Source of the DNA: Trueperaceae bacterium
GTDB lineage: Bacteria > Deinococcota > Deinococci > Deinococcales > Trueperaceae
Length of the DNA stretch: 34,653 nt
Assembly: GCA_020354625.1 (NCBI GenBank)
Contig: CP070651.1
Coordinates: 2,690,507 to 2,725,159, forward strand
Direction: 5' to 3'
Shown: positions 4,852 to 34,653 of the stretch, piece after piece
Layout: every line of letters starts with the position of its first letter
How positions within the stretch are numbered: the first letter of the stretch is position 1
Translations under genes and position numbers: made by a program
Notes under the pieces: generated by a model
Told to the model about the DNA's origin: nothing
Databases searched by the model: none
What the model saw: only the letters and a program-made list of their open reading frames with translations

Positions 4852-4934
4852 ACTCGATCCTCTCAACAGGGGTCTGACAATAGAGAACGGCAGACTATGA
4901 GATCTCTAGCTATCAGCAATCGATCGATCAAATA

Positions 4935-9795: not shown

Positions 9796-9802
9796 GACGA
9801 AG

Positions 9803-11173: not shown

Positions 11174-11176
11174 ACT

Positions 11177-11205
11177 ATGAAAATCGTAAGACCATGAAAA
11201 TCGTA
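11177..11205 (+). repeat. Duplicated gene start with a six-codon mini-ORF
   Basis: ATGAAAATCGTA occurs twice, at 11177-11188 and 11194-11205, separated by AGACC (a 17-bp period). The first copy opens a six-codon frame, M-K-I-V-R-P, whose TGA at 11195-11197 overlaps the ATG of the enolase-superfamily gene as ATGA. It looks like a tandem duplication of the start region and may couple translation. Confidence 0.7.
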
Positions 11206-12360: not shown

Positions 12361-12373
12361 GGGTTGCACTAAC

Positions 12374-13123: not shown

Positions 13124-13171
13124 CCACACCGCTGGCCACCACCGAACGGTCAAAGTCTTAGGCGACGACGC

Positions 13172-16100
13172 ATGGAACTCCTCCCCCACATCGACCTCAT
13201 CGATCCCGAGCTGATCACGGTGCTCCTCAGCGACCCGCAGAACTTCAGCTGGCGCGCCATCGACAGCGAAGGCCTCGATAGTTGGAGCCCCGATATCGGC
13301 TTGAGCAGCTATCCCAACCCGAGCATCGTCCGCCCGGTTGCGGTGGCTCGCTCCGGCATGGCTTCGACCTTGCGTCACCGCTTCTGGAGCACGGTAGAGA
13401 GGCAAGCCGATCACACGGGGCATCGCTATATCGGCATCCTCATCTATATCCCTGTAGGCGAACCCTGCCCGATGGAACTGCGTTTGGGCGCCCACGAGAT
13501 CGGGCGGGTCGAACCGAAACGCCGTGACAACCGGCTCCACCTGATCGTGGTGGACAGAGCGGTTCGCTTCCTAGGCGAGATGGAGATCTTCCAACTCACC
13601 GCCCCCGGGCCGGGCCGCTACCGCATCGAAACGTTTGCGCTGCTCAAAGAGCGCCCGGCACCTGCCCGCTTTATCCCCCAAATCGACAAGTTGAGCGTTC
13701 ACCCTTCCCCTCGAGATACGGGGCGATGGCAGGCCGATCTCCACTTGATCACCTCCGAAGTCGCCTCGGTTCAGGTCGAGCTCACGGCTGAGGGTCGACT
13801 CGTACACCAGCTCGAGCAGCCCCATCACACGGCGCTCCATAGGCTCCGGCTTAGCGACCTGGCCCCCGACACCAGCTACACAGCCACCGTCACCGTCACC
13901 GAGCCCGAAGGGGAGCAGGCCAGCGAGTCCCTCACGTTTACAACCCGGCGCGGAACGCCGAGCGAACAACCTTTCAGCGTCCCCTTCGAGCTCGTCAACC
14001 TGGCGGACACAGACCTCTCCGGGTTGCCGCTCACCTTCGGCGTTCCGCTCCCCCAGGGCACGCTTTCCGGTGGCTCGAACTGTCTCCTCAAGCTGGGTAA
14101 GCACCAACAGACGGCGCAGCTGCGCACACAAGCCACCTGGCCCGACGGTTCGGCGCGCTGGGTCTTGATCGACGGGGTCGTGCCGCCAACCTCGGATAGG
14201 GTCACGAAGGGGGTGCTCGAGCCCACCTCTCAACCCAACCTGGCGCTCGACGGCATCTCGAGCCGGAGCCAAGAACACCGGCTCACCGTGGCCCACAACC
14301 AGCTCACCGTCACCGTCGACCGGGACGAGGGCATCACGATCGAACAGGAGGCTGGGCAACAGCAGCCGCTGCGGCTCTCTTTTGCCTCGGTTCTCGGCAA
14401 CGAACTGCCCCTCACAAGCGGCAGGCTCGAACACCTGACAGTAGAGACGCTCGGACACCGGCGGGCCGTGATCCACTGCGTCGTGCCCCACGAGGATGAA
14501 GGGGGAACGGCTCATTTACAGAGCAACCTGCGCATCCACCTCTATGCAGGAAAGCCCTTCGTCAAGCTCGTCCACCGCCTGGAAGTGATCAGCCCGGCCC
14601 TCGCCCCCGCAGCCGCAGGAGGTGTACTCGCCGAAGACGTGCTCAAAGGCCCCATCGGCTCCGCCGTCGCCGGCACCAAAGGCGAAGCGAGCACGCTGTT
14701 GACCCTCCGGTCGTTTGCGCTTCAGCTGTCCTGCCCGGACGTGCGTTCGGTGGCGGTGCTCGGGCGATCGTGGGACGCTACCGAGGATTGGCGCTTGCTT
14801 CAAAAAAACGATCACGGCTACGCCGTCTTTACCGGAGAGCGGATGACGAAACACCAGGGCCGCGCGACAGGGCAGTTCACGCTCGAACATAGCAACGGAA
14901 GCTTCGGTGTCGGCATCAAAGACTTCTGGCAAACCTATCCCAAGGGCCTGCGGGTTCAAGCCGGAGCCGTCGAGATCGAGCTCTTTCCGGCCTTGACAGC
15001 AAAGACTCTGCCCGATGAGCACGAAAGCGACCCCGAAGCCTGGCACCGCCTCTATTTCTGGCTGCAAGGTGGGCTCTATCGACTCAAAGCAGGAATGGCA
15101 CTGACCAGCGAGCTGGTGCTCGATCTTGCCGGTGAAACCGGAGCCGTCTTCGATTGGCTCGAGAACCCTCCCGTGGTGAGGCCGGCGCTCGAGCATCTCA
15201 ACCGGTGCCGTGCGCTCGGCCCGATCGGCTCGAAGACGGCCTCGCTCTTGCCGCGCTACGAGGCCTTGGCGGACGAAGCGCTCACGTCTTTTCACCGAGA
15301 CCAGGCCCATTTTCGCGCCTTCGGGCAGCTCAACTACGGCGACTGGTACGGCGAGAGCGGCTGGTCGTGGGGGAACAACGAGTACGACCCGGCCTACTGC
15401 GCCTACATCGAATTTTTGCGCGGAGGCGAGCCCGCTTGGGCGACCTGGGGTGCAAAGGCGGTGCGGCATCTGGTCGACGTAGATACCCTGAACCATTCAG
15501 CCGACCCGAGTGAGATCGGCGGGCAGGCCATGCACATGCCCGGGCACCTGGGTGGCTACCTGCCGGCCCTGTTTCGCAGCAAGATGAAGGGCACCAACTC
15601 GATCCCCTCACATACCTGGGTGGAAGGCCCCCTCTTGCACCTCTTGTTGACCGGTGATGAGACGGTGCGAGAGAGCATCGAGAAGACCAAAGGTTGGCTC
15701 TTACAGAAACGTTGGTTCGACTGTTACGACTTTTCCAACTGCCGCGAAGCCGGCTGGCACCTCATCCATCTCTGCATGCTCGCCTCGGCCACCGACGACC
15801 CGATGTGCCTCAACGCCGCCGCCCTGATCGTCAGACGCGTTCTCGAGAGGCAGTCGCCTGAAGGAGGCTGGCTGCGGATGTTGACCGAAAGCCACTGCGG
15901 ATGCGGCTATCCGCGTTGCCGGGGTGAGGCCGGCTTTATGGTGGGCGTGTTGCTCTCGGGCTTGCAACGCTACCACCACCTTACCGGCGACCGGGGCGTT
16001 GCCGAAAGCATCATCGCTGGCGCACGCTGGCTGATCGCCCACACCTTCGATGAGGCGTCCGGTCACTTTCGCTATACCTCGTGCCGGAACCGCTCGTTGG

Positions 16101-16330
16101 GGGGAGGGTTTCAACAGACGCAGTGGGTGCTCGAAGGACTCGCTGATGCCTATGAGATTTCGGGGGACGCTGTCATCGGCAGCTATGTCGAACGCGGCCT
16201 GGCGGCGATCGGGCGATTCCCCGAGGGTTTGGATCATCTAGGGCTGGGAAAAGCGATGGCCCAACAGATGCGCTACGTGCCGGCCATCTTGGCGGCTCTG
16301 GAGAAGCGCCCATTGAGAGCCGATTCGTGA
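13172..16330 (+). CDS. Large exo-rhamnogalacturonan-lyase-like protein (PL26/PcRGLX type)
   Basis: A 1052-residue protein, the largest enzyme of the locus. Residues about 1-165 form an N-terminal beta-rich region I do not recognise. About 170-265 looks like a fibronectin-III domain (TSYTATVTVTEPEG). About 270-460 resembles the RIFT-barrel first domain of PcRGL-type lyases, with LPLTFGVPLPQGTL and TWPDGSARWVLIDG. From about 690 to the end is an alpha/alpha-toroid, including FGQLNYGDWYGESGWSW and HMPGHLGGYLPALF. PcRGL cleaves rhamnogalacturonan I from its end by beta-elimination. A cysteine cluster, CGCGYPRC near residues 907-914, could bind a metal. There is no signal peptide, so it acts on imported oligosaccharide. 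The family call rests on remembered motifs and the polysaccharide is not certain. Confidence 0.68.
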   Translation: MELLPHIDLIDPELITVLLSDPQNFSWRAIDSEGLDSWSPDIGLSSYPNPSIVRPVAVARSGMASTLRHRFWSTVERQADHTGHRYIGILIYIPVGEPCPMELRLGAHEIGRVEPKRRDNRLHLIVVDRAVRFLGEMEIFQLTAPGPGRYRIETFALLKERPAPARFIPQIDKLSVHPSPRDTGRWQADLHLITSEVASVQVELTAEGRLVHQLEQPHHTALHRLRLSDLAPDTSYTATVTVTEPEGEQASESLTFTTRRGTPSEQPFSVPFELVNLADTDLSGLPLTFGVPLPQGTLSGGSNCLLKLGKHQQTAQLRTQATWPDGSARWVLIDGVVPPTSDRVTKGVLEPTSQPNLALDGISSRSQEHRLTVAHNQLTVTVDRDEGITIEQEAGQQQPLRLSFASVLGNELPLTSGRLEHLTVETLGHRRAVIHCVVPHEDEGGTAHLQSNLRIHLYAGKPFVKLVHRLEVISPALAPAAAGGVLAEDVLKGPIGSAVAGTKGEASTLLTLRSFALQLSCPDVRSVAVLGRSWDATEDWRLLQKNDHGYAVFTGERMTKHQGRATGQFTLEHSNGSFGVGIKDFWQTYPKGLRVQAGAVEIELFPALTAKTLPDEHESDPEAWHRLYFWLQGGLYRLKAGMALTSELVLDLAGETGAVFDWLENPPVVRPALEHLNRCRALGPIGSKTASLLPRYEALADEALTSFHRDQAHFRAFGQLNYGDWYGESGWSWGNNEYDPAYCAYIEFLRGGEPAWATWGAKAVRHLVDVDTLNHSADPSEIGGQAMHMPGHLGGYLPALFRSKMKGTNSIPSHTWVEGPLLHLLLTGDETVRESIEKTKGWLLQKRWFDCYDFSNCREAGWHLIHLCMLASATDDPMCLNAAALIVRRVLERQSPEGGWLRMLTESHCGCGYPRCRGEAGFMVGVLLSGLQRYHHLTGDRGVAESIIAGARWLIAHTFDEASGHFRYTSCRNRSLGGGFQQTQWVLEGLADAYEISGDAVIGSYVERGLAAIGRFPEGLDHLGLGKAMAQQMRYVPAILAALEKRPLRADS

Positions 16331-16349
16331 CGCGTATGGGGATGAGAGT

Positions 16350-17144
16350 ATGAACCACTGGCAAGAACGCCTCGCCATCATCAGCGATGAGGCCTCGGAA
16401 TCGTTTGCTGAAGCCGTGTCCATCTCTCTGCCGCTTGGGATCAAAGCCTTTGAGCTGCGCAGTCTGGAAGGGAAGCGTTTTCCGCAGGTGAGTCAGGACA
16501 CCATCACCTCGATCATCGAGACCACAAAACAGCACAGGCTCGAGCTATTGGGCGTGAGCCCCGGCTTTTTCAAGCATCCCCTCGACAGTCCTCAAACGGA
16601 GCAGGCCTTTGAACGCGGGTTCTCTGAAGCCTTCCGCCTCATGGAACAGCTCGGCATCACCCAGATGACCGTTTTCAGCTTCGAGCGTCGAGGCGGCCGC
16701 GAGGCGCCGATCCCCGAGGGGGTGCTCGAGCAGCTCGGGCGGGCGAAGCGACGATGCCGGCGCGAGGGCGTCGCCCTGCTCATCGAAAACAACCCTGCCG
16801 GTTGGGCTGATACCGGAGCGAACCTGGCGTATCTCGCCGACAAACTCGGCTTACAGGTCGTCTGGGATCCTGCCAACGCAGCCGCCTCGGGAGAGCGAGC
16901 CTATCCCGAAGGCTACGAAAAGGTCCGCGAGCACATCCACCACGTGCACTTCAAAAATTGGGTGCCACAAACAGGGAATGTCGATCTCATAAGCGGTGTG
17001 GTCGATATGCAGGCGCAGATCGCAGCCCTCAAAGCCGATGGCTACGAGGGCTACTACTGCCTCGAACCGCACCGGTGGCACGAGCGGGAAGCAGCGACGC
17101 GCCGCAACGCCGAACAGTTGCATAGGATGCTAAGCCATGGCTGA
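16350..17144 (+). CDS. Sugar phosphate isomerase/epimerase family protein (TIM barrel)
   Basis: A 264-residue cytosolic TIM barrel of the xylose-isomerase-like superfamily. The metal tetrad is E146 (LLIENN), D173 (VVWDPAN), H200 (HHVHFKN) and E239 (YCLEPH). The order and spacing are almost identical to those of the protein at 29-841, though the overall sequences differ. The H-x-x-N-W feature after H200 is common in hydroxypyruvate-isomerase and inosose-type members. It starts at ATG 16350, 19 bp after the large lyase gene, and is the last gene of the first rightward unit before a 310-bp gap. It probably isomerises a sugar or keto-acid released by the lyases. The substrate is unknown. Confidence 0.83.
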   Translation: MNHWQERLAIISDEASESFAEAVSISLPLGIKAFELRSLEGKRFPQVSQDTITSIIETTKQHRLELLGVSPGFFKHPLDSPQTEQAFERGFSEAFRLMEQLGITQMTVFSFERRGGREAPIPEGVLEQLGRAKRRCRREGVALLIENNPAGWADTGANLAYLADKLGLQVVWDPANAAASGERAYPEGYEKVREHIHHVHFKNWVPQTGNVDLISGVVDMQAQIAALKADGYEGYYCLEPHRWHEREAATRRNAEQLHRMLSHG

Positions 17145-17454
17145 AGCCACTCCCCCCATCGGCAGCATCGTTGTCGATACAGGCGATAGATCTGTTCGGC
17201 CTATTTTGAGGAACCATGACAAGGTGGGGTGCTTTTCCGTTGTTTTTTCCGGCACAGCCAGATCAAACAACAGCGTCTCACCCACAAGAAACGACCGACT
17301 TCTCAGCAGGATTCCAGACGAAAGGCGACGAAATGAGGTGGGTGTACGGCACAGCGTAGCGCAAGAATGGAGCCAGGGCCATGAGACAACATATTGAGTC
17401 GAATCGAAACCGTAGCGCTGCTTCTGCAGCACACCATTTCAGGGAGGTTATGTG
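17145..17454. other. 310-bp gap between catabolic units; no gene called
   Basis: The gap separates the isomerase gene from the second aldolase-type gene. I see a possible GTTGTTT/AAACAAC long-loop hairpin at 17239-17271 and a short GCTGC-TTCT-GCAGC hairpin near 17416-17429. Open frames exist on both strands here, including about 100 codons on the - strand, but none shows a ribosome binding site or a recognisable family. It may be leader and promoter sequence, or an eroded insertion. Confidence 0.4.
17441..17447 (+). promoter_or_regulatory. Ribosome binding site of the second DHDPS-family gene
   Basis: AGGGAGG lies 7 nt before ATG 17455 and only 4 nt before the in-frame GTG 17452. The spacing favours ATG 17455 as the start. 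Confidence 0.75.
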
Positions 17455-18402
17455 ATGGCGAGACCGAAACCGAGCGGCATTTTTCCGGCGATACCGATCC
17501 CCTTTGCGTCCGACTGGAGCCTAGACGAGGCTGGTTTTCGCCAGTACTTGCAGTGGATCAGCCAACAGGGGGTCCAAGGGCTGGTAACGAACGGTCACAC
17601 CGGCGAAATCAGTTCGCTGAGTCGCGAAGAACGCCGGCGGGTCACCGCAGTGTGCGTGGACGAAGTAGGGCATCTGCTGCCCGTCTACTCCGGCATCTCT
17701 GCCGAGGGGACCATCGAAGCCGTCGAACACGCCCAAGACGCCCAAGCAGCAGGGGCCAAAGGTATCTTGCTGATGCCCCCACACAACTGGTTGCGCTTCG
17801 GCACCAAACCGGAGGCGAAAGTCGACTTCTTCAGAGACGTGGCGGCGGCGATCGACATCGATATCATCGTGCACCTCTACCCCGCCTGGACCAAGACCTT
17901 TTACACCGTCGACATGCGCCAGGCCATGGGCGATATCGACAACGTAGTGGCCATCAAAGATGGCACCAGGGAGATGGCGCAGTACCAAAAGGATTTGAGC
18001 ATCCTCAAAAAGAGCCATCCGGATATCGCCATCCTGACCTGCCACGACGAGTACCTGCTACCGACCATGATCTTCGGCATCGATGGAGCGCTCGTCGGCT
18101 TTGGCAGCCTGGTTCCCGAACTGATTACAGGGCTCTGGAAAGCGGTTCAGGCGAACGATATCGTCTTGGCCCGCCGCTTCGAGGAACGCCTGCTGCCGCT
18201 CAAGCTGGCCGTGTACGGGATGGGCGAGCCCTCAGGGGATGCACACGCCCGCCTCAAAGAGGCCCTGGTGCAGCGCGGACTCTTCCCATCAGCGCGCATG
18301 CGTCCCCCCGTACCGGCCTTGACCGACGCCGAGAAGCAGACGATTGCAGACGCCTTCAAGGCGGCGGGGGTCGAGCGAGAGGTCGTCCACGCTGTTTCAT
18401 GA
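17455..18402 (+). CDS. Dihydrodipicolinate synthase family aldolase/dehydratase (second copy)
   Basis: A 315-residue Schiff-base TIM barrel. From ATG 17455 the catalytic lysine is K168 in VVAIKDGT, the tyrosine is Y142 in VHLYPAW, and the pyruvate-binding loop is GHTGE (47-51). That loop is closer to the canonical GTTGE than the GQASE of the paralogue at 8884-9795. The C-terminal helices are complete. KDG aldolases and 5-keto-4-deoxyglucarate dehydratases belong here, both fitting degradation of unsaturated uronates produced by lyases. It begins a second unit with its own long leader; the PL22-like gene follows by 108 bp. Two differently tuned members in one locus suggest two distinct keto-acid intermediates. 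Confidence 0.87.
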   Translation: MARPKPSGIFPAIPIPFASDWSLDEAGFRQYLQWISQQGVQGLVTNGHTGEISSLSREERRRVTAVCVDEVGHLLPVYSGISAEGTIEAVEHAQDAQAAGAKGILLMPPHNWLRFGTKPEAKVDFFRDVAAAIDIDIIVHLYPAWTKTFYTVDMRQAMGDIDNVVAIKDGTREMAQYQKDLSILKKSHPDIAILTCHDEYLLPTMIFGIDGALVGFGSLVPELITGLWKAVQANDIVLARRFEERLLPLKLAVYGMGEPSGDAHARLKEALVQRGLFPSARMRPPVPALTDAEKQTIADAFKAAGVEREVVHAVS

Positions 18403-18500
18403 GCGACCCCAACTGTCTTGAACAAACGGGGAGGCGAGGGGGTGGTCGCCTCATGGCATCTTTTACCCCCCCGCTCCCCTGCTCCTCTGGAGCACCGACT

Positions 18501-18505
18501 AGGAG
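18501..18505 (+). promoter_or_regulatory. Ribosome binding site deciding the start of the PL22-like gene
   Basis: AGGAG lies 5 nt before the GTG at 18511. The in-frame stretch upstream, back to 18418, is low in family-like sequence, so GTG 18511 is the likely start. Confidence 0.6.
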
Positions 18506-18510
18506 CAGCC

Positions 18511-19629
18511 GTGTCTCGAGGTAGTCGCTATCCGGCCGAATCGGTAAACTATCAAGACTCCCGAACCGGAGTACGGATCAGGCAGGTCACCGACCACCCC
18601 TCGATCCACCACCACCCCATTTTCATCGTGCCTGCCTACGACGATGCCATGGAGCGGCTGATCTTCGTGTCGCACCGCACGGGCCGGCCCGAGATCTTTG
18701 CCGAAGAACGGGCCAGCGGCGAGCTGATTCAGCTGACGGAGCGAGATCATCTGTCCGAATACTCGATCTACCCCTCGCACGACGGCCGCTATGTCTACTT
18801 CACGGCCGGCTCGAGCGCCTGGCGCGTCCACACGGAGTCCTTTGAAACGGAGATGCTCGTCGATTTCGGCGCGGTGGCATTAAAAGAGGCAGGCATGGTG
18901 GCCTCGGCCATGGGCACCACCGCCTTGAGCGCGAACGACAGGTGGTGGGCCGTGCGGTTCAGCGTGGGTGATGAGGCCTCGATCGCGGTGATCGACACCG
19001 AGACGCTCGAGTACCAGGTCATCTTGCAACGTGACAGCGTGGCACACATGATGTTTTGCCCCGACGACGACACCCTGCTCTACTACGCAGGCCCGCTCAA
19101 AGACCGCGTCTGGCTGATCAACCGCGATGGGAGCGACAACCGCCGTCTCTATCAGCGAAAAGCGGGGGAATGGATCACCCACGAGGTATGGATTCCGGGC
19201 ACGAAAGAGCTCGCCTTCGTCGATTGGCCCCACGGCATCCGCTGTGTCCACGCAGACAGCGAACGGGAGCGCCGGGTGACGTCGTTTAACGCTTGGCACG
19301 CCATCTGCAACCGTGACGGCAGCCTGATGGTCGCCGATACCAACTATCCAGATCGGGGGCTACAGCTCTTCAACCCGTTAGATGGGGTGGGAAGCCCTGA
19401 AGTCATCTGCTTTCCCGGCGCGTCCAACATGGGCGAGCACTGGGCCGGGCCTTTCCCCTATGAACACGGCCCCATCAACGTCAACGCCCCGCAGCACACC
19501 CACCCACACCCCTCGTTTTCACCAGATAGCCGCCACATCGTCTTTACCAGCGACCAGACGGGCTACGCCCAAGTCTACGAAGCTGAGATACCCACCGACA
19601 TGATAGGGAGAATAAAACATGGGTCATGA
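18511..19629 (+). CDS. Oligogalacturonate-lyase-like (PL22) beta-propeller
   Basis: A 372-residue seven-bladed propeller of the oligogalacturonide-lyase type, a cytosolic enzyme that splits short uronate oligomers by beta-elimination. The metal site of PL22 is a QxxHxH motif plus an upstream histidine. Both are visible, as Q328, H331 and H333 within APQHTHPHPSFSPD, and H263 in NAWHA. Blades carry WD40/TolB-like repeats such as TDHPSIHHHPIF and YPSHDGRYVYFTAG. GTG 18511 is chosen on the basis of AGGAG just upstream. There is no signal peptide. Its last 11 bp overlap the oxidoreductase start, indicating coupled translation. It may make 4-deoxy-5-keto-uronates that feed the neighbouring dehydrogenase and aldolase. 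The exact uronate (galacturonate or another) is unknown. Confidence 0.82.
   Translation: MSRGSRYPAESVNYQDSRTGVRIRQVTDHPSIHHHPIFIVPAYDDAMERLIFVSHRTGRPEIFAEERASGELIQLTERDHLSEYSIYPSHDGRYVYFTAGSSAWRVHTESFETEMLVDFGAVALKEAGMVASAMGTTALSANDRWWAVRFSVGDEASIAVIDTETLEYQVILQRDSVAHMMFCPDDDTLLYYAGPLKDRVWLINRDGSDNRRLYQRKAGEWITHEVWIPGTKELAFVDWPHGIRCVHADSERERRVTSFNAWHAICNRDGSLMVADTNYPDRGLQLFNPLDGVGSPEVICFPGASNMGEHWAGPFPYEHGPINVNAPQHTHPHPSFSPDSRHIVFTSDQTGYAQVYEAEIPTDMIGRIKHGS
19605..19610 (+). promoter_or_regulatory. Ribosome binding site of the Gfo/Idh/MocA gene
   Basis: AGGGAG lies 8 nt before ATG 19619, inside the end of the PL22-like coding region. It supports the 11-bp overlap between the two genes. Confidence 0.7.
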
Positions 19630-20869
19630 GCCGCTCACCGTTGCGCTGATCGGAACGGGTAACCGTTCGAAAAAGATCTACCGGGCCGTCTTCGAAGCCA
19701 TCAAACCTTGGGTAAAGATCGTCGCCGTATGCGACCCGGTGCGTGAGTCGACCGACGCCTTTGCCGAGAGTATCGGCGTGCCGGCCTTTTACGATCTCAA
19801 AGAGTTGGTCGAGGCGCGGCCGATGGAAGCCGCGTTCGTGGTCACCCCCGTTCCGTCGCACCACTCGATCGCCTGCTACCTGCTCTCACACGGGGTTCAC
19901 GTCAACGTCGAGACCAGCATGTGCAGCCTTTTGGCACAAGCCCAAGACATGGTCAAAACAGCGCGCGAGCACCGTGCGATTTTGCGCGTGGCCGAGAACT
20001 TCTTCCGCTTCCCCTTCGACCGCATGATGAAGCTCGTCGCCCAAGATGGATTCATCGGTCCCGTGAAACGGCTCACCTGCTGGCACGACCACACCGGCTA
20101 CCACAACAATTCGCGCTGGATCCACTTTTTCGAAAGCTATCCCACCGCCGTACAGTCGATCGAACACACCATGCCGACGGTGCCTCACAACGAGATGGTG
20201 CATCGGCATCACGTGAGCGAGACGTACCGGGCCCGCTTTTTCTGGTTCCCTGATGACAATCCCGACGGTGCGCTGGTCATCGACCACGCCGGCAACATCA
20301 AGAGTATGCTGGGGCGCTATCCGCGACCAGGGTATACCGAACTCGCCGGGGCCAGAGGCAGCATCATGCAGGAGGCAGGCCTCGACTGGCACGGCATCGG
20401 CGAGGTCAGGTATTGCACCGATCGCTCCCTCATGCACGGTGCTGAGGCAGATCTTCACTACCCGATCGTTCACGTCGGAGACGGCAACGACTGGTTCTCG
20501 TCCCACGTCGACCTGCCTACAGGCCGGCTCGAATACCAAAACCCGTACCGAATCGGAAACCCGGAGCACATCGGCACCGGACACCGGCGCGACTACTACC
20601 GGGCCGCAGTGGTCGGGCACATCGTCGACTTTGTCGACAGCGTTCGGGGCACCAAAGCACCCGAATACACCGATGAAGACGCCATGATGGCCATGATGAT
20701 GGAAGTGGCCGCCCGCGAGTCCACGATGCAAGAAGGGAAGCGCCTGCAGCTGCCGCTCGAAGGCGATCTGGAATCCGAAGAGGTACTGCGCGCCAAGGAG
20801 AGAGCGAACTACGGGGTCGATCCGCTCGACATCGAAGGGATGCTGGCGATCAGCTACCCGAGGCCGTGA
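19619..20869 (+). CDS. Gfo/Idh/MocA-family oxidoreductase with a non-canonical EKP motif
   Basis: A 416-residue NAD(P)-dependent oxidoreductase. The Rossmann fold opens with VALIGTGNRSK (8-18) and the second strand IVAVCDP ends at residue 40. The region that normally holds E-K-P reads VNVETSM (E98-T99), so the lysine that usually contacts cofactor and substrate is a threonine. The C-terminal alpha/beta domain is complete, with WHDHTGYHNN and the family-typical HIVDFVDSVRG. It overlaps the PL22-like gene by 11 bp, so the two proteins probably act in sequence on the same uronate or its keto product. The missing lysine could mean an unusual reaction, or a non-oxidative use of NAD as in some glycosidases of this fold. 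It is the last gene of the locus. Confidence 0.85.
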   Translation: MGHEPLTVALIGTGNRSKKIYRAVFEAIKPWVKIVAVCDPVRESTDAFAESIGVPAFYDLKELVEARPMEAAFVVTPVPSHHSIACYLLSHGVHVNVETSMCSLLAQAQDMVKTAREHRAILRVAENFFRFPFDRMMKLVAQDGFIGPVKRLTCWHDHTGYHNNSRWIHFFESYPTAVQSIEHTMPTVPHNEMVHRHHVSETYRARFFWFPDDNPDGALVIDHAGNIKSMLGRYPRPGYTELAGARGSIMQEAGLDWHGIGEVRYCTDRSLMHGAEADLHYPIVHVGDGNDWFSSHVDLPTGRLEYQNPYRIGNPEHIGTGHRRDYYRAAVVGHIVDFVDSVRGTKAPEYTDEDAMMAMMMEVAARESTMQEGKRLQLPLEGDLESEEVLRAKERANYGVDPLDIEGMLAISYPRP

Positions 20870-25293: not shown

Positions 25294-26443
25294 GTGTCAC
25301 CAATTTTCCTTCTAGGGACCTATCGCGAGCTGCGAGCACAGGCGCTCGCCCTCATCACCCTTTGCCTCTTTCTTACTGTCTGCTTCCAAGGCACAGCGGT
25401 CACAGGCGCCCCAACGGGCCGGTTGGACCTGGACGGCCGACTCGTTTTCGCAATGGGATTATCTGCTTCCTCACCTCAGGGCCGTACAGAACCTCGGGCT
25501 CGGGGGCTTCGCCTTTGTGGGCCAAGATATCGGCGGTTGGGACGGTGACGACGGCGAGGAGGCTGCTGCCCCGCCACCGAGCCCCGAACTCTACACCCGC
25601 TGGTTCGAAATCGGTGTCTTCAACGCTCTCACCAGAGCCCACGGCACCTCTGCGCGGGAGCCGTACCAATTCGGTCAAGAGGTCGAGCAGATCACCAAGG
25701 ACTACCTCAGACTCCGTTACCGACTGCTCCCTTACATCTACACGTCGGCCTGGCAAGCCAGCCAGACCGGCGTGCCCCTGGTCCGCCCACTCGTGCTGGA
25801 GTTCCAAAACGACCCCACGACCTACGTGCGCGACGACGAGTTCTTGTTCGGACCCTCGCTACTCGTGGCGCCCGTGACTACACTCGGAGCGAGTTCGCGA
25901 GAGGTGTATCTGCCCGAAGGCCTTTGGTACGACTTCTGGGAACCGACGCAGACGTTCCGGGGACCGACCACACTGACAGAAGTCGCCGCTCCCTTAGGCC
26001 GGGTCCCGCTCTTCGTCCGCGGTGGAGCGGTGATCCCGATGGGTCCTGAGATGAACTACGTGGGTGAGCAGCCTTTGGATCCGCTCGAGCTCCATATCTA
26101 CCCGGATCAAACCGCACGCGGCCTCCTCTATGAGGACGACGGCGTCAGCCCAGAAGGATCCTATAGCACCACCAACTACAACCTGATCCAAGGCGAAACG
26201 CTCCGTCTCGACGTGGACCGGCGCACCGGATTGTTTCGGCCTCAAGAACGCACCTATCGAGTGATTCTTTACGACCGGGATGAACCGACCGCGGTAGCTC
26301 GAGACGGGTCACGGGTGGCCGAGGTCGCCTCGCACTTGGAGCTGCAAACGGTTTCCTACGGATGGTTCTACGATGCGAGCGCCCGCGTTCTCCATCTGGC
26401 ATTTCCCGACACCGGGGCCGCGACGCAGTGGGAAGTGCGCTAA
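25294..26443 (+). pseudogene. GH31 glycosidase remnant (signal peptide plus C-terminal half, frameshifted, catalytic core deleted)
   Basis: The first 40 codons encode a signal peptide (LITLCLFLTVCFQGTA). From about 25415 a different frame reads RAGWTWTADSFSQWDY, then LGLGGFAFVGQDIGGWDG, then the complete GH31 C-terminal region with LRYRLLPYIYTSAWQA and REVYLPEGLWYDFW. The first of these segments aligns with the acid/base aspartate region of GH31 alpha-glucosidases/xylosidases. About 400 residues that normally precede it, including the nucleophile block, are missing, and the signal peptide is out of frame with the rest. An internal GTG at 25517 could only express an inactive C-terminal piece. 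The best reading is a deletion within a secreted GH31 gene. Confidence 0.78.
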
Positions 26444-26721
26444 CCGCTTAGCTCCTCAGGGATGGAACCAACCATCCCATGGCCTCCATCGGCCTTCTTG
26501 ATAGTAACCAGAGAGCGTGTCAGGATTGCCCTACCCCACGCCATCCGAGACCGGACTCCGTTATGCCCGTTGAAACACAACGGGCGATCCGCTGTATAAC
26601 GGGACGTTTGTCTCTTTACATACACTTCACGGAAGGGGTAGGTGTGTCGATAAGACTGAGACGGCTCTAAGAGAAACCTTCTCTTGATTCTTTCCTTATT
26701 CCCGCTAAGGAGAAGATCGTC
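26444..26721. other. 278-bp gap with three hairpins before the large propeller gene
   Basis: Three inverted repeats are visible. GGGATGG/CCATCCC at 26459-26478 is a plausible terminator of the GH31 remnant. GCCCGTTG/CAACGGGC is at 26565-26585. AAGAGAA/TTCTCTT at 26669-26685 is followed by a T-rich stretch 36 nt before the next ATG. The last could be a leader attenuator. No gene is seen. Confidence 0.5.
26706..26712 (+). promoter_or_regulatory. Ribosome binding site of the 1149-residue propeller gene
   Basis: TAAGGAG lies 9 nt before ATG 26722, which confirms a start with a long polar stretch before the signal peptide. Confidence 0.75.
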
Positions 26722-29700
26722 ATGTCGAGAACGTTTTTGTCCGCCCCGTTCCCGCCTTGGACGTTCACGCCACCCACCTTCGTACACGGCAAGAGAATCG
26801 GTCGCCTTATCCCGGCACTGGCCTTCGCAATCTTTGTGATCGCACAAACCGTTTGGCTAGGCTGCCCAGCCCTCGCCCAGAGCGGAGGGTTCCATGAGCT
26901 CTTCGATGACCCCTCTCTCCCGGAGTGGGAAATGATCGGCCACAGCGCAGTCGAGAATAGCAGCCTCCTCATGGAATCGGGCGGCGGTGCCGTCCGCATC
27001 GGTCGATGGTCCGATTTCGAACTACATGCCCGCATGCGCCGGATCGGTGAAGGAGAGCTTCTGGTCCAGCTCCGCCTCGAGGATGAGGGTTCTATCTCGC
27101 TGCGCATCGGCGGAACCTACGCCGCCCTGCTTTTGGGCCCACAGCTCTTGGTGGCATCTCCTCTTGAGGAGATCCCGGTGCGGGAATGGTTCACGCTGGG
27201 TACCTTCGCAGCCGGCGACGAACTAATCGTGGAGATCAACGGCCGGCCACAGCTGACCGCCCGTCTGCGTGAGGGGCCTACCCGGGGCACGGTGGGGTTC
27301 TTTTTCGAGGGTCCGGGCAGAGGCGAGGTCGACTTCGCCGAGCTGTTGAGCCTAGACGAAGAGTCCCCCGAAGCGGTACCGGAAGCGACACAAGCCCTTC
27401 CCAGAGAAACTCCACCCTCATCGCCATCTCGAGGTGAGTTTCCCTCTGAATCTGTGGTGGTCATGTTTGAAGACATGAGAAACGGCATGTTCGATGCCGC
27501 CGTCCCCAGCGGACCGGGCACCTTGAGTGTGGAACCAGCTGGAATGGACAACCTCGCCGCACACCTTACAGGCGAGGTGAAGCTCACCATGCACGGCGCA
27601 ACCTGGCAGTCCTACTCGTGGAGGGACTACGATCTCTCGCTACGCTTGAAACGCTCCCAAGGGGGCTTTGGATTCGGTTTGCGGTGGCTCCAGCTCGTTC
27701 CCCATGCCCGCTCAGACACCGGGCGCGGCTACTGGATCGATCACGATGGAAGGGAATGGATCCTCTCGAAAGAGGTGCATGAGGTCTCCACCGAGCTTGC
27801 TCGGTTCCCTGGACCAGTCACACCCGACAGCTGGCACGACCTGACGCTCTCGGTGCGAGATGTGCCGGGCGGAGGAGAGATTTCCGTTTCTTTAAGCGGC
27901 GTCACGGCGTTTCGCTTCACCGATCCTTCGCCCATCCCGTACGGCACGCTGGCCTTCCGTACACAAGGTACGGCTGCCGAGCTGTGGCTTGATGATATCG
28001 AGGTCATCGAGCACCTCGATCCGAACAGGACGTGGCGCCAGGCGCGCGGTCCTGAGGGCGTGAGTGATGTGACTGCGATCGCCGTCGACCCGCGCGATTG
28101 GCGCGTCGCCTATGCGGGCGGCTCGGATGCTGGGTTCTTCAAGACAACGGATGGTGGAAGGACCTGGCAGGAGATCGGCCTTACACGTGAACTGTGGACC
28201 CCACGAATCCACACGATCGTCCACGCCCCCTCCGATCCGAACATTCTCTACTTGGGCGCCGGTGGAAAGCATATCAGCCCGATCTGGCGGAGCGACGACG
28301 GCGGGGAGACCTGGAAGTGGATGCGGCTGGTGTCACCGGGAGGAGATTACTTGGCAGAGGCGGACGCCATGGCGATTGCGGTGATGCCCGACGATCCGAT
28401 GCATATCTACTTCAGCATCGGCTCCGCTTTTTTCATAATCCCTCCCCCGGAGTTTTCAGGGGTATATGAGTCACGAGACGGCGGCCGAACCTACAAGAAC
28501 TTACAGAGCGGCGGCGGTAACATTTCATCCGTGGCGCTCGATCCCGCCGATCCGCGCCACATCCTCGCCGGCAGTCTCAACGCCGCCGAATCGGGTGTTT
28601 CAATCATCGCTTCTTATGACGGCGGCCACAGCTGGGCTGCCTCCGACGATGGCATCGCTCAGGACGATATCCGCCAGATCATCTTCGATCCATCCTCGCC
28701 GGGCACCGTCTTCGCCGTGGCCTTTACCTTCATCCCTGAGGTTGGTGGCAACCTCTACCGCTCAGAAGATTCGGGGCGAACGTGGGAGATCCTCGCTTCG
28801 CTCCCAAAGAGCAACGGACTGCTGTATAACCCGCCACCTATCCCAACGCTTTATGCCAACCAGCCCGATGGGCTCTACACCTCGATCGATGCGGGTGATT
28901 CGTGGACCCGTCTGACGGGCAGCGAGTGCATCAGGGGCATCAGTGCGCTCGGCAGCAACAATCCTGAGGTCATCTACTCCATCACCGCTCCCACCATCAG
29001 CGTCTCTACCGATCGTGGCACGACCTGCACCCAATCGACCGAAGGTCTGCTGGCACACCCCGTCATCGGCTTGGGTATCTCTAAAAGCAACCCGGCCGTG
29101 GCCTACATCGGGACGACGATGGGCGTGTTCAAAACGACCGATGCGGGCGAGACGTGGGAGTTCCTGCTCAGAGGTATGTTCGCCGGCATCGCCGTCGATC
29201 CGACCGATAGCGAGACGGTCTATCTGGGCGCAGTCGAAGGAGCTGAGGTGCTCAAATCGACCGACGGCGGAAGGGGCTGGACCAACTTGAAAGCCGAGAT
29301 CCATTATCCCGGCGTCTCGACGCTCGTAATCGATCCCAACGATCCGCAAACGATCTACGCCGGGACGGGCCACGGCCCACAGATGCCTCCACAGGGCGCC
29401 GGCCTGTACAAGAGCACCGATGCCGGCAAAACCTGGAACCGCTTGCCCGGCGTTCCGGACGTCGCTGTCACCGCCGTGGAGATCGATCGAGGCGGCAGCG
29501 GCCGCGTCGCCGTGTCGACCATGGGCAACGGGGTTCTCATCAGCGAAGATAACGGTCTCACCTTCGAGCCGCGCAATCGCGGCTTCGTCGACGATCCCGT
29601 CGCCCGACAAGTGTGGGCCTTGAGAATGCACCCACAGAATCCCGATGTGCTCTACGCCGGTACCAGCCGCCATTACGGCCAGGTCGGCAGCGGAGGAAAA

Positions 29701-30171
29701 GATGGTCTCTATAAGACCACAGATGGTGGGCGCAACTGGACCATGATCCTCGGAGGTGAGGACGTGCCGGTTGCACCCAACGGCTACATCCATCTCGGCG
29801 GCGGCATCGACGCCATCGCCATCAACCCGGCACGACCGGAGCAGGTCTATGCGGCCCTGCACGATCCCGGGATCGTTTTCAGCGAGGACGGCGGCGAGAC
29901 CTGGAGCTATGTAAACGCCGGACTGGTCCCGCTGATGACACACGTCTACCCGTACCGTATGGACATCTCCCCGACAGGCGACGTTCTCTACGCCACCTCC
30001 TGTGGTCGCAGCATCTTCCGCAACCTGACCAACGTGCCTGAGGATTCGCTCTCCGCCTTCCTGTCGACGCTCTCAGAGAGAGAGCAAGCCCGACCAACAG
30101 AAGGTATGTGGGAGTCGACCGAGCCAGCCGCGGCACAGGTTGAGACAAACTCACGTGAACACAGGCGCTGA
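26722..30171 (+). CDS. Secreted protein with two lectin-like domains and a double Asp-box (VPS10/GH74-like) propeller
   Basis: An 1149-residue exported protein. A 25-residue polar lead is followed by a hydrophobic segment (about 31-52) ending in PALAQ, a probable signal-peptidase site. Two concanavalin-A-like beta-sandwich domains follow (about 58-210 and 245-435), joined by a proline/serine-rich linker. From about 440 to 1110 there are roughly 13 Asp-box repeats, including TTDGGRTW, SDDGGETW, SRDGGRTY, TTDAGETW, STDAGKTW and SEDGGETW. They are preceded by D-P-x-D/N-P phrases such as IDPNDPQTIYAG. This pattern is typical of two stacked seven-bladed VPS10/GH74-type propellers. No catalytic aspartate pair of GH74 can be assigned. 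The cytochrome gene follows with no gap, so the two products probably work together at the cell surface. Confidence 0.8.
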   Translation: MSRTFLSAPFPPWTFTPPTFVHGKRIGRLIPALAFAIFVIAQTVWLGCPALAQSGGFHELFDDPSLPEWEMIGHSAVENSSLLMESGGGAVRIGRWSDFELHARMRRIGEGELLVQLRLEDEGSISLRIGGTYAALLLGPQLLVASPLEEIPVREWFTLGTFAAGDELIVEINGRPQLTARLREGPTRGTVGFFFEGPGRGEVDFAELLSLDEESPEAVPEATQALPRETPPSSPSRGEFPSESVVVMFEDMRNGMFDAAVPSGPGTLSVEPAGMDNLAAHLTGEVKLTMHGATWQSYSWRDYDLSLRLKRSQGGFGFGLRWLQLVPHARSDTGRGYWIDHDGREWILSKEVHEVSTELARFPGPVTPDSWHDLTLSVRDVPGGGEISVSLSGVTAFRFTDPSPIPYGTLAFRTQGTAAELWLDDIEVIEHLDPNRTWRQARGPEGVSDVTAIAVDPRDWRVAYAGGSDAGFFKTTDGGRTWQEIGLTRELWTPRIHTIVHAPSDPNILYLGAGGKHISPIWRSDDGGETWKWMRLVSPGGDYLAEADAMAIAVMPDDPMHIYFSIGSAFFIIPPPEFSGVYESRDGGRTYKNLQSGGGNISSVALDPADPRHILAGSLNAAESGVSIIASYDGGHSWAASDDGIAQDDIRQIIFDPSSPGTVFAVAFTFIPEVGGNLYRSEDSGRTWEILASLPKSNGLLYNPPPIPTLYANQPDGLYTSIDAGDSWTRLTGSECIRGISALGSNNPEVIYSITAPTISVSTDRGTTCTQSTEGLLAHPVIGLGISKSNPAVAYIGTTMGVFKTTDAGETWEFLLRGMFAGIAVDPTDSETVYLGAVEGAEVLKSTDGGRGWTNLKAEIHYPGVSTLVIDPNDPQTIYAGTGHGPQMPPQGAGLYKSTDAGKTWNRLPGVPDVAVTAVEIDRGGSGRVAVSTMGNGVLISEDNGLTFEPRNRGFVDDPVARQVWALRMHPQNPDVLYAGTSRHYGQVGSGGKDGLYKTTDGGRNWTMILGGEDVPVAPNGYIHLGGGIDAIAINPARPEQVYAALHDPGIVFSEDGGETWSYVNAGLVPLMTHVYPYRMDISPTGDVLYATSCGRSIFRNLTNVPEDSLSAFLSTLSEREQARPTEGMWESTEPAAAQVETNSREHRR

Positions 30172-30179
30172 GTGGCGCC

Positions 30180-30184
30180 GGAGG
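30180..30184 (+). promoter_or_regulatory. Ribosome binding site deciding the cytochrome start
   Basis: GGAGG lies 8 nt before the in-frame GTG 30193. The more upstream GTG 30172, directly after the preceding stop, has no such site. Confidence 0.55.
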
Positions 30185-30192
30185 ATCCGATC

Positions 30193-31974
30193 GTGGATGC
30201 GCATACGCATCATGGCAAGAACACCCGGCGAAAACCCCAGTTCTGGATCGGTCTGCTGCTGATTTCGATCGCTCTCGCCGGCGCCGTGGCGTGGACCTGG
30301 AAGGTTGATTCTGTCGAAGGGATCGTGTGGGACGAAACCGGGGAACCTATCCCCGGCGCCATCATACGCGTAAAAGCGGAAGAGACCCAGGCAACGACCG
30401 TTGCGACCGGCCGGTTCCACTTGATCGGATTCGAACCGCGCTTCCGCACACGAGTTACGGCCTGGGCACACGGCTACTACGTAAGCGGTGTCGACGTCTG
30501 GCCCTGGACAGAGGAGGCCGAGTTCATCCTGCGTCGCTATCCGGTCGAAGACCATCCTGACTACACCTGGGTACCACCGGCGGTCGAGACCCGCAGTGCC
30601 CTACGAGAGACTTGGATCCGATTAGGATTAGATCTCACCGCACGACTCTCCTTCCACCACGCCTTCCTGCCCCTCGCCGACCGGCTGAGCCTCGGCTGCC
30701 GCGACTGTCACGGAGCAGTAATCTTTGAAGAGTGGGCCGAGGGTGCCCACGCCCGCGGGGCAGACAACCCGGTCTTCCTTACGCTCTACAACGGAACCGA
30801 CGTAACCGGTGTCAAAGGTGCTGAGGTCCAGTTCGGAACCTCGCCCTACTACTACAACAAGGTGATCGTCTCGCCAGACACGGAGGCCGCGGATGTCGGG
30901 GCAGGCTTCCGGCTCGATTTTCCCGAGATTGCAGGCAACTGCGCTACCTGCCACCTACCCTCCCCAGCGCTCGATGCACCCTACAACACCGATCCGAACG
31001 CTGCGACCGGGATCGACGCCCAAGGAGCCCACTGCGACTTCTGCCATAAGATCGTCGACGTCCAGCTCGATCCCGAGAGCGGCTTGCCCCCCGAAAACCT
31101 GCCCGGCGTCCTGTCCCTGGAACTGGCACGGCCCGGCGCCGGGGAACAGGTATTCTTCGGACCCTACGATGACGTCGACGCGGGTCCAGACACGTACCTA
31201 CCGCTCATGAAGCAGAGCCAGATCTGCGCGCCCTGCCACAACGCCTCTTTCTGGGGGGTTCCGATCTACCAATCCTTTGCCGAGTGGCTCGAGAGTCCCT
31301 ACAGCAACCCCGAGACCGGCCAGACCTGTCAAAACTGCCATATGCGACCGAACGGGATAACAGATAACTTCGCCCCAGGCCGCGGCGGATTAAAGCGCGA
31401 TCCCGCCAGTCTGCCGACCCACATCTTTCCGGGCGCGGCCGACCAGGAACTGCTGGCAGAGGCTGCCAGCATGCACGTCGACGCTTCTTGGCAGGCTGAG
31501 ATCCTCACGGTGAACGTGGCGATCGAGAACGACAACACCGGTCACCACATCCCGACCGACAGTCCGCTACGGCAGGTGATCCTCCTGGTCCAGGCCACTT
31601 CGGATGCCGGTGAGCCGTTACCTCTACTGGAGGGTCCAACCCTGCCAGATTGGACCGGAATCGGAGACCCGACAGGCGGAAACTACGCCGGCTTTCCAGG
31701 CCGGGTCTATGCCAAAGTGCTCGAGGAGGTAAGGACCGGAACAGCCCCGACAGCGGCGTACTGGAACCCGATCCGCATCGTGAGCGACAACCGCATTCCC
31801 GCCATGGAGGCAGACCGCGTCAACTTCCGATTCGCAGCCCCGGTCGATGGGCCGCTGCAGGTTCAGGTACGGCTCCTCTTTCGCCGAGCGTTCAAACCTC
31901 TTGCTGAACAAAAAGGTTGGGACGTCCCAGACATCCCGATGGCCACCCGTGAGTTGACGCTGATCCGCGAGTGA
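30193..31974 (+). CDS. Membrane-anchored pentahaem cytochrome c with an N-terminal carboxypeptidase-regulatory-like domain
   Basis: A 593-residue protein. A short cytosolic tail (VDAHTHHGKNTRRKPQ) precedes one TM helix (about 17-38), which anchors the rest outside. Residues about 40-115 form a carboxypeptidase-regulatory-like beta-sandwich (GIVWDETGEPIPGAIIRV, then GRFHLIGF). Five CxxCH haem sites follow: CRDCH (169), CATCH (250), CDFCH (281), CAPCH (345) and CQNCH (379). Distal histidines are abundant, for example HHAF and GHHIP. The arrangement recalls cytochrome c-554-type multihaem proteins. The last 180 residues are beta-rich with no haem. It directly follows the large propeller gene with no spacer, so the two are co-transcribed. 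The role is presumably electron transfer at the cell surface; the partner redox enzyme is not visible. Confidence 0.87.
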   Translation: MDAHTHHGKNTRRKPQFWIGLLLISIALAGAVAWTWKVDSVEGIVWDETGEPIPGAIIRVKAEETQATTVATGRFHLIGFEPRFRTRVTAWAHGYYVSGVDVWPWTEEAEFILRRYPVEDHPDYTWVPPAVETRSALRETWIRLGLDLTARLSFHHAFLPLADRLSLGCRDCHGAVIFEEWAEGAHARGADNPVFLTLYNGTDVTGVKGAEVQFGTSPYYYNKVIVSPDTEAADVGAGFRLDFPEIAGNCATCHLPSPALDAPYNTDPNAATGIDAQGAHCDFCHKIVDVQLDPESGLPPENLPGVLSLELARPGAGEQVFFGPYDDVDAGPDTYLPLMKQSQICAPCHNASFWGVPIYQSFAEWLESPYSNPETGQTCQNCHMRPNGITDNFAPGRGGLKRDPASLPTHIFPGAADQELLAEAASMHVDASWQAEILTVNVAIENDNTGHHIPTDSPLRQVILLVQATSDAGEPLPLLEGPTLPDWTGIGDPTGGNYAGFPGRVYAKVLEEVRTGTAPTAAYWNPIRIVSDNRIPAMEADRVNFRFAAPVDGPLQVQVRLLFRRAFKPLAEQKGWDVPDIPMATRELTLIRE

Positions 31975-32026
31975 GCCAGAGTGGCTTTGCAACGAAGCAG
32001 AAGCCTATCGCCAGGAGTAGATCGTC

Positions 32027-32278
32027 GGCACTGGCCGCGTCCACGATAGTTGCCGTAACATCGACCAGGGAAACACAACGCACCATCCTCCAGCCCACAT
32101 CTGCCTGGCCCAGCCAGCAGATCTGAAGCGGCACCCGCGCGACCTGCTCATAAAACGACATCTTGCGCCACAGGCCGTGCTCGCCGAGCATCTCGCCGTG
32201 ATCCGAGGTGTGGATGACGATGGTCCGGTCCACCAGCCCTGTCTCGTCCAAGGTATCTAGCTGTGCAATCTCACCGCT
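32027..32278 (-). pseudogene. Sulfatase fragment, truncated at both ends
   Basis: An open stretch of about 80 codons matches the middle to C-terminal part of a type I sulfatase: LDTLDETGLVDRTIVIHTSDHGEMLGEHGLW, quoted here in two parts as LDETGLVDRTIVIHTSDHGE and MLGEHGLWRKMSFYEQ, then VARVPLQI and SLVDVTATIVDAA. The metal-binding DHG is intact, but the N-terminal half with the CxPxR cysteine is missing and the C-terminus decays into unrelated sequence. It is more like choline/aryl sulfatases than the intact sulfatase at 9803-11173. Its 5' end abuts the recombinase fragment, which marks a rearrangement point near 32280. Confidence 0.7.
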
Positions 32279-32281
32279 CTT

Positions 32282-32644
32282 TTGCTCGAGCACCGCGAAA
32301 ACGCTCCAGCAAATGAGCACGATCTCGTCTTCCCCAATCAAAATGGTGAGCCCCTAGACGTGGATAACTTCGCCCAGCGAAACTTCAAGCGCATCCTCAA
32401 AGTCGTCGGCTTACCCAATATCCGCCTTTATGACCTCAGGCACACCTGCGCCACCCTGCTTCTTCTTGCTTGGATGCACGCCAAGGTGGTGAGCGAGCGT
32501 CTCGGGCACGCCAGCATCAGAGAGACGATGGACACCTACAGCCACGTCTTACCGAGTATGCAAAAGCAAGCGAGCGACGCTCTCGAGCATCTGCTCTTTA
32601 GCGATAAAAGCGAGGATTACCAGCAAGTCAGGGAGCTCAACTAA
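32282..32644 (+). pseudogene. Tyrosine recombinase (phage-type integrase) C-terminal fragment
   Basis: The reading frame encodes the C-terminal catalytic part of a tyrosine recombinase: DLVFPNQNGEPLDVDNF, then LYDLRHTCATLLL with the second catalytic arginine (H-x-x-R position reads YDLR), then SERLGHASIRETMDTYSHV with the conserved GH and the nucleophile tyrosine. The N-terminal core-binding domain and the first catalytic arginine and lysine are missing. The apparent TTG start is therefore not a real one. It is a broken integrase, left by a prophage or integrative element. No att core, tRNA or matching repeat is visible beside it. Confidence 0.8.
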
Positions 32645-33581: not shown

Positions 33582-34653
33582 ATGCTCCTTCGTACCCTCG
33601 GCAGGCTCCAGCTCGAGGGCGCCTCGTTCACCCAGGCCAAGGCCCTGACACTACTGGCCTACCTCGCACTCGAAGGCCCCCAGGAAAGACGACACCTCGC
33701 CGAGCTGTTCTGGTTCAAAGCAACCGATCCCCTCAACAACCTCAATACCGCCCTGAGCCGCATCCGGAAGGGAGCCCCCGGCGCGGTGGAGGCGGATGAG
33801 GTGCGGGTATCGACCCGCCTCCCGTGTGATGCCGTGGAGCTTCTCGAAGCCAACCCGAAGGGTGAGGCCGAAACCTGCTTGGCGCTGTACCAGGGCAGGT
33901 TCTTGCAAGGCGTGCGGCTCCAGGGAACCAGCAACGACCTCGAAGAGTGGATCTATGCCACCCGAGAGACATTGGCTGCCCGGGCTCGCGAGGCCTTGCT
34001 GCACCTCGCGGAGGACAGCGCCGCGGCGGGAGATTTCGACCGGACTGCCGACCAGGCCCACCGGGCGTACCTGCTGCCGGGCGCCCCGGAACCCGAAGCG
34101 GAAGACCTCGAGAGGATGTACGCGCTCCTTCGGGCAGCAGAGCATCCGGCGGCCACCGAGGTTCGCAAGGAAGCCGGAGGCTACGGCCTGAACCTGCGGC
34201 TCTCGCCCAGCGAGGCGCGAGCGTCGCTTCGGCTCGAGGCTGAGCCGGCACGGCGGGAGGTCTCGCACAACCTGCCTGTGCAACCCACTGGCTTCATCGG
34301 GCGCGAAGCCGAGATGGCAAAGCTTGACAGGCTACTCGCCGATCCAGAGTGCCGCCTCTTGACGATCACCGGACCGGGAGGGGTCGGCAAGACCAGGCTC
34401 GCCATCGAAGCGGTGCAACACCAAGGTGAACGCTACCCTGATGGCGTCACCTTCATCTCTTTTGTCACCGTCACCGCCCCAACCTCCATGCCCTACCCCA
34501 TCGCCACCGCTCTCGACTTCTCCTTTTTCGGTCCCATCAACCCCAAAGAACAGCTCCTCGAACACCTCCAAGATAAAGAGATGCTCTTGGTGCTCGATAA
34601 TCTCGAGCACCTCTTATCAGGTGTTCACTTCATCGGTGAGATGCTGGCAACCG
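33582..34653 (+). CDS. SARP/BTAD-type regulator with AAA/NB-ARC ATPase domain, 3' end outside the window
   Basis: The frame is open for 357 codons and runs off the window. Residues 1-75 resemble the winged-helix output domain of SARP-type regulators (LLRTLGRLQLEG, then LTLLAYLALEG and HLAELFW). About 80-230 is a helical bacterial-transcriptional-activation (BTAD) region. From about 235 an ATPase domain begins with TGFIGREAEM, then Walker A GPGGVGKT at 264-271 and Walker B LLVLDN ending near 340. This matches large STAND-type regulators (DNA-binding, BTAD, NB-ARC, often TPR repeats). The C-terminal sensor region is not visible. ATG 33582 is chosen because a TATAAT box sits 6 nt upstream. The target is unknown. 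Confidence 0.85.
   Translation, partial: MLLRTLGRLQLEGASFTQAKALTLLAYLALEGPQERRHLAELFWFKATDPLNNLNTALSRIRKGAPGAVEADEVRVSTRLPCDAVELLEANPKGEAETCLALYQGRFLQGVRLQGTSNDLEEWIYATRETLAARAREALLHLAEDSAAAGDFDRTADQAHRAYLLPGAPEPEAEDLERMYALLRAAEHPAATEVRKEAGGYGLNLRLSPSEARASLRLEAEPARREVSHNLPVQPTGFIGREAEMAKLDRLLADPECRLLTITGPGGVGKTRLAIEAVQHQGERYPDGVTFISFVTVTAPTSMPYPIATALDFSFFGPINPKEQLLEHLQDKEMLLVLDNLEHLLSGVHFIGEMLAT

Follow-up and report, generated by a model that had tools for sequence, protein, structure and literature searches.

An Asp-box propeller gene adjoining a pentahaem cytochrome gene in a Trueperaceae bacterium and in five further phyla

In a Trueperaceae bacterium (Deinococcota) whose genome is a single contig of 4.29 Mb (CP070651.1), a gene encoding a secreted Asp-box propeller protein (P0001) is followed directly by one encoding a cytochrome with five CxxCH haem sites (P0002), raising the question of whether these two proteins belong together and, if so, what such a pair could do. 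Both genes lie in the 34,653-nt stretch analysed here (the window, positions 2,690,507 to 2,725,159 of the contig). An earlier note made from the sequence alone had considered the pairing meaningful and had named the lack of adjacency in any relative as what would refute it. We find that the pairing recurs in relatives from five other phyla, and our preferred reading, to which we give a probability of about 0.45, is that the pair is a mobile cassette of two genes serving extracytoplasmic electron transfer, in which the propeller would dock the cytochrome to a polymer or surface.

Recurrence of the pair and other neighbours of the cytochrome

A cytochrome alignment of four sequences, used to scan 84,980 species genomes, yielded 38 loci (numbered with the prefix L), and we added further loci by sampling the phyla of L028, L036, L030 and L034 and the order of L029. 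A close cytochrome clade of 26 members was compared with 22 loci of more distant homologues. An Asp-box propeller is the adjacent gene in 9 of the 26 close-clade members, namely in the window (Deinococcota), L028, L093 and L095 (Chloroflexota), L036 (Acidobacteriota), L029 (Lysobacterales, Pseudomonadota), L030 and L163 (KSB1) and L034 (Nitrospinota), and thus in six phyla, whereas no Asp-box propeller was found in the 22 comparison loci (Fisher p 0.002); chance adjacency is estimated at ~2e-10 even at the highest propeller density observed, both values serving as guides, since the sampling was non-random and loci of one phylum are not independent. The relatives' retrieved loci hold no Asp-box open reading frame (ORF) other than the adjacent partners, and the partner propellers are the best matches even in genomes with many other propellers. 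The propeller gene lies upstream of the cytochrome gene in L028, L036, L093 and L095 and downstream in L029, L030, L034 and L163; therefore, the linkage has been kept while the arrangement changes. Nine adjacent pairs across six phyla rule out a chance neighbourhood; the condition named for refutation thus fails, and the proposal that the pairing is meaningful is supported. Moreover, both KSB1 partner propellers (L030:2515-5109 and L163:9434-11935) carry sorting tails of the type IX secretion system (T9SS), that of L163 scoring just below the Pfam cut-off, which supports a surface location of the propeller partner.

Asp-box proteins are not the only propellers near these cytochromes. Two FG-GAP propellers adjoin the cytochrome gene in L037, which has no Asp-box neighbour; L032 encodes a YNCE propeller fused to MauG/RoxA-like domains and then an FG-GAP propeller fused to cytochrome c; L033 encodes a lactonase-type propeller fused to a MauG domain, and in L164 and L165 a MauG (CCP_MauG) di-haem protein is adjacent. 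A propeller or di-haem oxidase beside the cytochrome is therefore a recurring theme, while the remaining relatives neighbour transport, sulfatase, sulfite reductase, phosphorylase or other genes, or none recognised by Pfam. The earlier note had also suggested that electrons might be delivered to an external oxidative enzyme, and this gains indirect support from the four close relatives (L164, L165, L033 and L032) that adjoin MauG-type di-haem proteins. On such an account the cytochrome would serve an oxidative (MauG-, peroxidase- or RoxA-like) extracytoplasmic enzyme by shuttling electrons to or from a di-haem oxidase, with the propeller as a substrate-presenting or catalytic partner. However, no MauG-like gene stands beside the window pair, nor was one recognised next to any of the other eight Asp-box pairs, and there is no haem site in the Asp-box propeller itself; we regard this account as unlikely.

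Anatomy of the two proteins and their surroundings

The description of P0001 as a secreted propeller protein with two lectin-like domains is borne out by strict Asp-boxes, Pfam and a lectin model of relatives (Table 1). P0001 has 10 strict Asp-boxes (10-12 overall) against a mean of 0.01 in shuffled sequences, and belongs with the Sortilin-Vps10/BNR Asp-box proteins, as it scores above the gathering score of both Pfam models (Sortilin-Vps10, PF15902, E 8.5e-34, 117.5 bits versus 33; BNR, PF02012, E 7e-12, 43.9 bits versus 27). Both lectin-like domains are matched (E 4e-10 for the first and E 6.5e-11 for the second) by a model derived from those of L028, L036, L093 and L095, which matches none of 14 non-partner propellers; Pfam detects the first alone, as 3keto-disac_hyd. 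P0001 is probably surface-binding.

That the protein is a double propeller, as also claimed earlier, agrees with the fold search, in which the top 25 matches are all GH74 proteins, whose fold is a double seven-bladed Asp-box propeller, but the model used is weak (predicted local distance difference test score, pLDDT, 55.6) and rests on a thin alignment of six sequences. With GH74 xyloglucanases as nearest folds and pectin/uronate-type catabolic genes in the window, P0001 might degrade polysaccharides as GH74 enzymes do, and the cytochrome gene might lie next to it, unrelated or loosely linked, as part of a region for carbohydrate use. Yet P0001 lacks the GH74 catalytic Asp motifs (as in 1sqj/2ebs; RTD[IV]GGAYRW and SGxGDxxG in 1sqj) and was rejected as a GH74 enzyme; the second motif is missing in all partners, and adjacency to the cytochrome is kept across phyla whereas carbohydrate genes are not, making this alternative very improbable. 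The Pfam model PSII_BNR (Ycf48) matches P0001 (E 1.6e-10) as well as the propellers of relatives such as L028 (E 3.3e-20). Ycf48/HCF136 is an Asp-box protein of photosystem II assembly, and the propeller could likewise be an assembly factor or chaperone of the cytochrome that binds no external material. The lectin-like domains and the varied surface-sorting tails (T9SS) point outward instead, and most cytochrome relatives do without a propeller, so that an assembly role seems improbable to us.

P0002 contains exactly five CxxCH motifs (shuffled mean 0.006) and a carboxypeptidase-regulatory-like domain (CarboxypepD_reg, E 2.3e-08), both as described earlier, along with weak Pfam matches to haem domains including MtrC/MtrF. 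Its motifs, together with CcmF- and CcmC-like cytochrome c maturation genes in the host genome (named from length and family), predict a haem-binding c-type cytochrome. A Foldseek search with the AlphaFold2 model (pLDDT 82.6, 22-sequence alignment) returned one clear match, 5ZE8, the penta-haem cytochrome c552 of Thermochromatium tepidum (E 2.7e-19, TM 0.70 by target length), which spans the haem domain and the C-terminal part, while the N-terminus matches transthyretin-like domains; 5ZE8 emerged from the fold search alone, a PDB sequence search with the cytochrome giving nothing significant. With five c-type haem sites in conserved order and a c552 fold with a C-terminal beta (Ig-like) domain, P0002 is, judged by its model, a member of the PHC/ExtKL (ExtKL/c552-type) family. 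The ten haem cysteines, H193, H417, H458 and the GHxxP of the GHxxPT motif are fully conserved, both among 14 close relatives and in the wider set of 22. Haem site 1 varies among relatives, being CxxCK in L033 (9989-11608) and degenerate in L032 (9881-11557). Two more specific identities were rejected. P0002 is not an NrfA nitrite reductase, as it has no CxxCK active-site haem (haem 1 is CRDCH, and CxxCK occurs within the aligned set in L033 only), nor is it ExtKL proper, since it scores 46.1 bits with NCBIfam ExtKL (NF040886; curated cut-off 250) and its neighbours are not the porin and rhodanese genes of extHIJ but remnants of GH31, sulfatase and integrase genes.

Two structural claims of the earlier note stand in part. 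The cytochrome had been called membrane-anchored, and anchoring by the N-terminal helix is plausible, but there may instead be a cleaved signal peptide, and several relatives resemble lipoproteins or secreted proteins. The genes had been said to follow each other without a gap; the ORFs do abut, but GTG 30193, preceded by GGAGG, is a better start than GTG 30172, and the real intergenic gap is therefore ~21 nt.

Table 1. Features of the gene pair (window positions)
Feature	Position	Strand	Evidence
AAGGAG ribosome-binding site, 9 nt ahead of propeller ATG	26707..26712	+	read from sequence
Secreted Asp-box protein P0001, putative double propeller, 1149 aa	26722..30171	+	ORF, Pfam, fold search, motif count
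Signal peptide, h-region LIPALAFAIFVIAQTVWLGC, ALA|QS site	26722..26880	+	by eye
Lectin-like (LamG / 3keto-disac_hyd) domain 1, residues 57-205	26890..27336	+	Pfam, relatives' lectin model
Lectin-like domain 2, residues 287-419	27580..27978	+	relatives' lectin model
Asp-box propeller region, residues 435-1105, two predicted GH74-like propellers	28024..30036	+	Pfam, fold search, motifs
Pentahaem cytochrome ORF P0002, 600 aa from GTG 30172; likelier start GTG 30193	30172..31974	+	
GGAGG, 8 nt before GTG 30193	30180..30184	+	read from sequence
N-terminal hydrophobic helix, residues 22-42	30235..30297	+	structure model
CarboxypepD_reg (transthyretin-like) domain, residues 47-103	30310..30480	+	Pfam, fold search
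Haem site 1 CRDCH, residue 176	30697..30711	+	motif
Haem site 2 CATCH, residue 257	30940..30954	+	motif
Haem site 3 CDFCH, residue 288	31033..31047	+	motif
Haem site 4 CAPCH, residue 352	31225..31239	+	motif
Haem site 5 CQNCH, residue 386	31327..31341	+	motif
C-terminal beta domain	31468..31962	+	conservation, structure model
Conserved GHxxPT motif, here GHHIPT, in C-terminal beta domain	31540-31557	+	

The pair is flanked by gene remnants. Ahead of it lies a GH31 glycosidase remnant (25316-26440, plus strand) of which the last third of the TIM barrel and the C-terminal domains are left, and directly downstream of the cytochrome gene are a sulfatase remnant (31895-32353, minus strand) and the C-terminal remnant of a tyrosine recombinase (integrase; 32261-32641, plus strand). 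Elsewhere in the window, positions 8884-20869 hold a pectin/uronate-type catabolic cluster (PcRGLX-like lyase, oligogalacturonate-lyase-like protein, two DHDPS-family enzymes, MR_MLE, sulfatase and GFO_IDH), a second BNR/sialidase-like protein (3736-4866, minus strand) adjoins an oligopeptide-type ABC transporter, and 33583-34653 contains, by eye, the start of a SARP/BTAD-like regulator and then an NTPase-like region at the window edge. Promoter and terminator scans gave no promoter-like match and no usable terminator signal.

Origin of the cassette and a possible mechanism

The eight partner propellers of the relatives form one clade (support 100/100), and P0001 shares their lectin-plus-propeller architecture. 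P0001 could nevertheless have come to lie beside the cytochrome independently, as an Asp-box protein analogous but not orthologous to the other partners: on the best tree it lies outside the partner clade on a long branch, and some non-partner propellers outscore it on the partner model. Against this, both of its lectin domains match the partners' model, as no non-partner does, its best BLAST matches are partners (top 178 bits versus <=101 for non-partners), forcing it inside the partner clade costs 2.6 log units and is not rejected by the approximately unbiased (AU) test (p 0.205), and P0002 groups with the cytochrome of L029 (99/92) and then with that of L028 (100/99), both of these sisters being paired. 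An independent origin is in our judgement decidedly unlikely, and P0001 is a candidate member of the partner clade, a placement not shown by the tree but compatible with the AU test.

This genome probably gained the cassette by horizontal transfer, as suggested by the absence of the close cytochrome clade from the other genomes of the phylum, by its nearest cytochromes, which belong to Lysobacterales and Chloroflexota, and by the flanking gene remnants. We examined 111 genomes of this small phylum, and the 110 besides the window's own contain no member of the close clade; only three cytochrome relatives were found within the phylum, all of them distant (27-31% identity) and lacking a propeller. 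A close origin from a plasmid or virus was considered and rejected, as a plasmid collection gave one distant match (22% identity) and no viral relative was found.

Returning to the mobile cassette that we prefer, the cytochrome would be a five-haem electron carrier of the PHC family, which the N-terminal helix would keep at the cell envelope and to which the transthyretin-like domain would lend a spacer or docking arm. The exported propeller would use its lectin-like domains and the faces of its propellers to attach to polysaccharide, to some other polymer of the envelope or to a partner protein. It would position the cytochrome at the bound site, where electrons could move between the respiratory chain on one side and an acceptor, donor or oxidative enzyme outside on the other. 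Beyond the anatomy, the fold family of the cytochrome and the adjacency over six phyla, we infer such a complex, its ligand, its location and the direction of electron flow, and with them the link, put forward in the earlier note, between electron transfer and the binding of a polymer or surface. Several observations weigh against this reading. P0001 not only sits on a long branch outside the clade of the partner propellers but also shares no more than 24-25% identity with them. The propeller and cytochrome trees conflict in places, as the propellers of L029 and L030 group together as sisters, unlike the cytochromes of these two loci, so that propeller partners may have been exchanged. Seventeen of the 26 close relatives have no Asp-box partner (a few contigs end too near to tell), and the cytochrome therefore does not depend on the propeller. 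The cassette shows no foreign base composition, its GC content of about 0.60-0.62 being like that of the rest of the window, and no porin or outer-membrane conduit gene was found beside the pair.

A broader version, which we offer tentatively and consider somewhat unlikely, is that of a widespread, horizontally moving module that combines a conserved pentahaem cytochrome of the PHC family with interchangeable surface-binding propellers (Asp-box, FG-GAP, YNCE/lactonase, some MauG-fused), where docking to a given polymer or surface would set the site of electron delivery. In Geobacter Ext clusters, a periplasmic cytochrome is kept while the outer partner is swapped (PMC6148476).

Comparison with known systems

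Extracellular electron transfer has been studied mainly in metal reducers with porin-cytochrome conduits, and a pair common to six phyla suggests that there is another means of positioning an electron carrier at a surface. The cytochrome-propeller pair is small, defined, expressible and testable, and also provides a genomic handle on the large, functionally uncharacterised group of Asp-box proteins. Open-literature searches found no description of an Asp-box propeller paired with a multihaem cytochrome, in agreement with the earlier note, and as far as we have found the pair is apparently undescribed, though the theme of propeller plus multihaem cytochrome (PMC5539420) and the cytochrome family (PMC11976967) are already known.

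On the propeller side, GH74 xyloglucanases and bacterial Sortilin/Vps10-like Asp-box proteins have the double Asp-box propeller fold that is predicted, from a weak model, for P0001, which differs from the xyloglucanases in lacking the catalytic aspartates and in having lectin-like domains in front. Bacterial partners of ANME archaea possess an operon encoding a six-bladed propeller with 16- and 26-haem cytochromes (PMC5539420). There too a secreted propeller and multihaem cytochromes are encoded together in the context of electron transfer, but the propeller type and the cytochromes are others and the four-gene core includes a prolyl isomerase.

On the cytochrome side, the outer-membrane decahaem cytochromes MtrC/OmcA are multihaem and extracytoplasmic like P0002, which matches the Pfam MtrC/MtrF model weakly but has five haems, no porin alongside and a different C-terminal domain. 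An Mtr/Ext outer-membrane conduit, defined by a cluster of porin and outer cytochrome, was rejected for the window, as there is no porin-like gene beside the pair. Also among the closest known systems is the PHC family, which comprises ExtKL and Gsu2801 of Geobacter and pentahaem proteins of cable bacteria and is reported to be similar to c552 and to archaeal cytochrome nanowires (PMC11976967); in Geobacter, the cluster that includes ExtKL has a part in metal reduction (PMC6148476). Members of this family and the related c552 (ExtKL, Gsu2801, cable-bacteria sPHC/lPHC, Thermochromatium c552) likewise combine five CxxCH haems with an Ig-like beta domain behind them, to which P0002 adds an N-terminal helix and a carboxypeptidase-regulatory-like domain, and in place of the ExtHIJ porin and rhodanese neighbours it is paired with a propeller.

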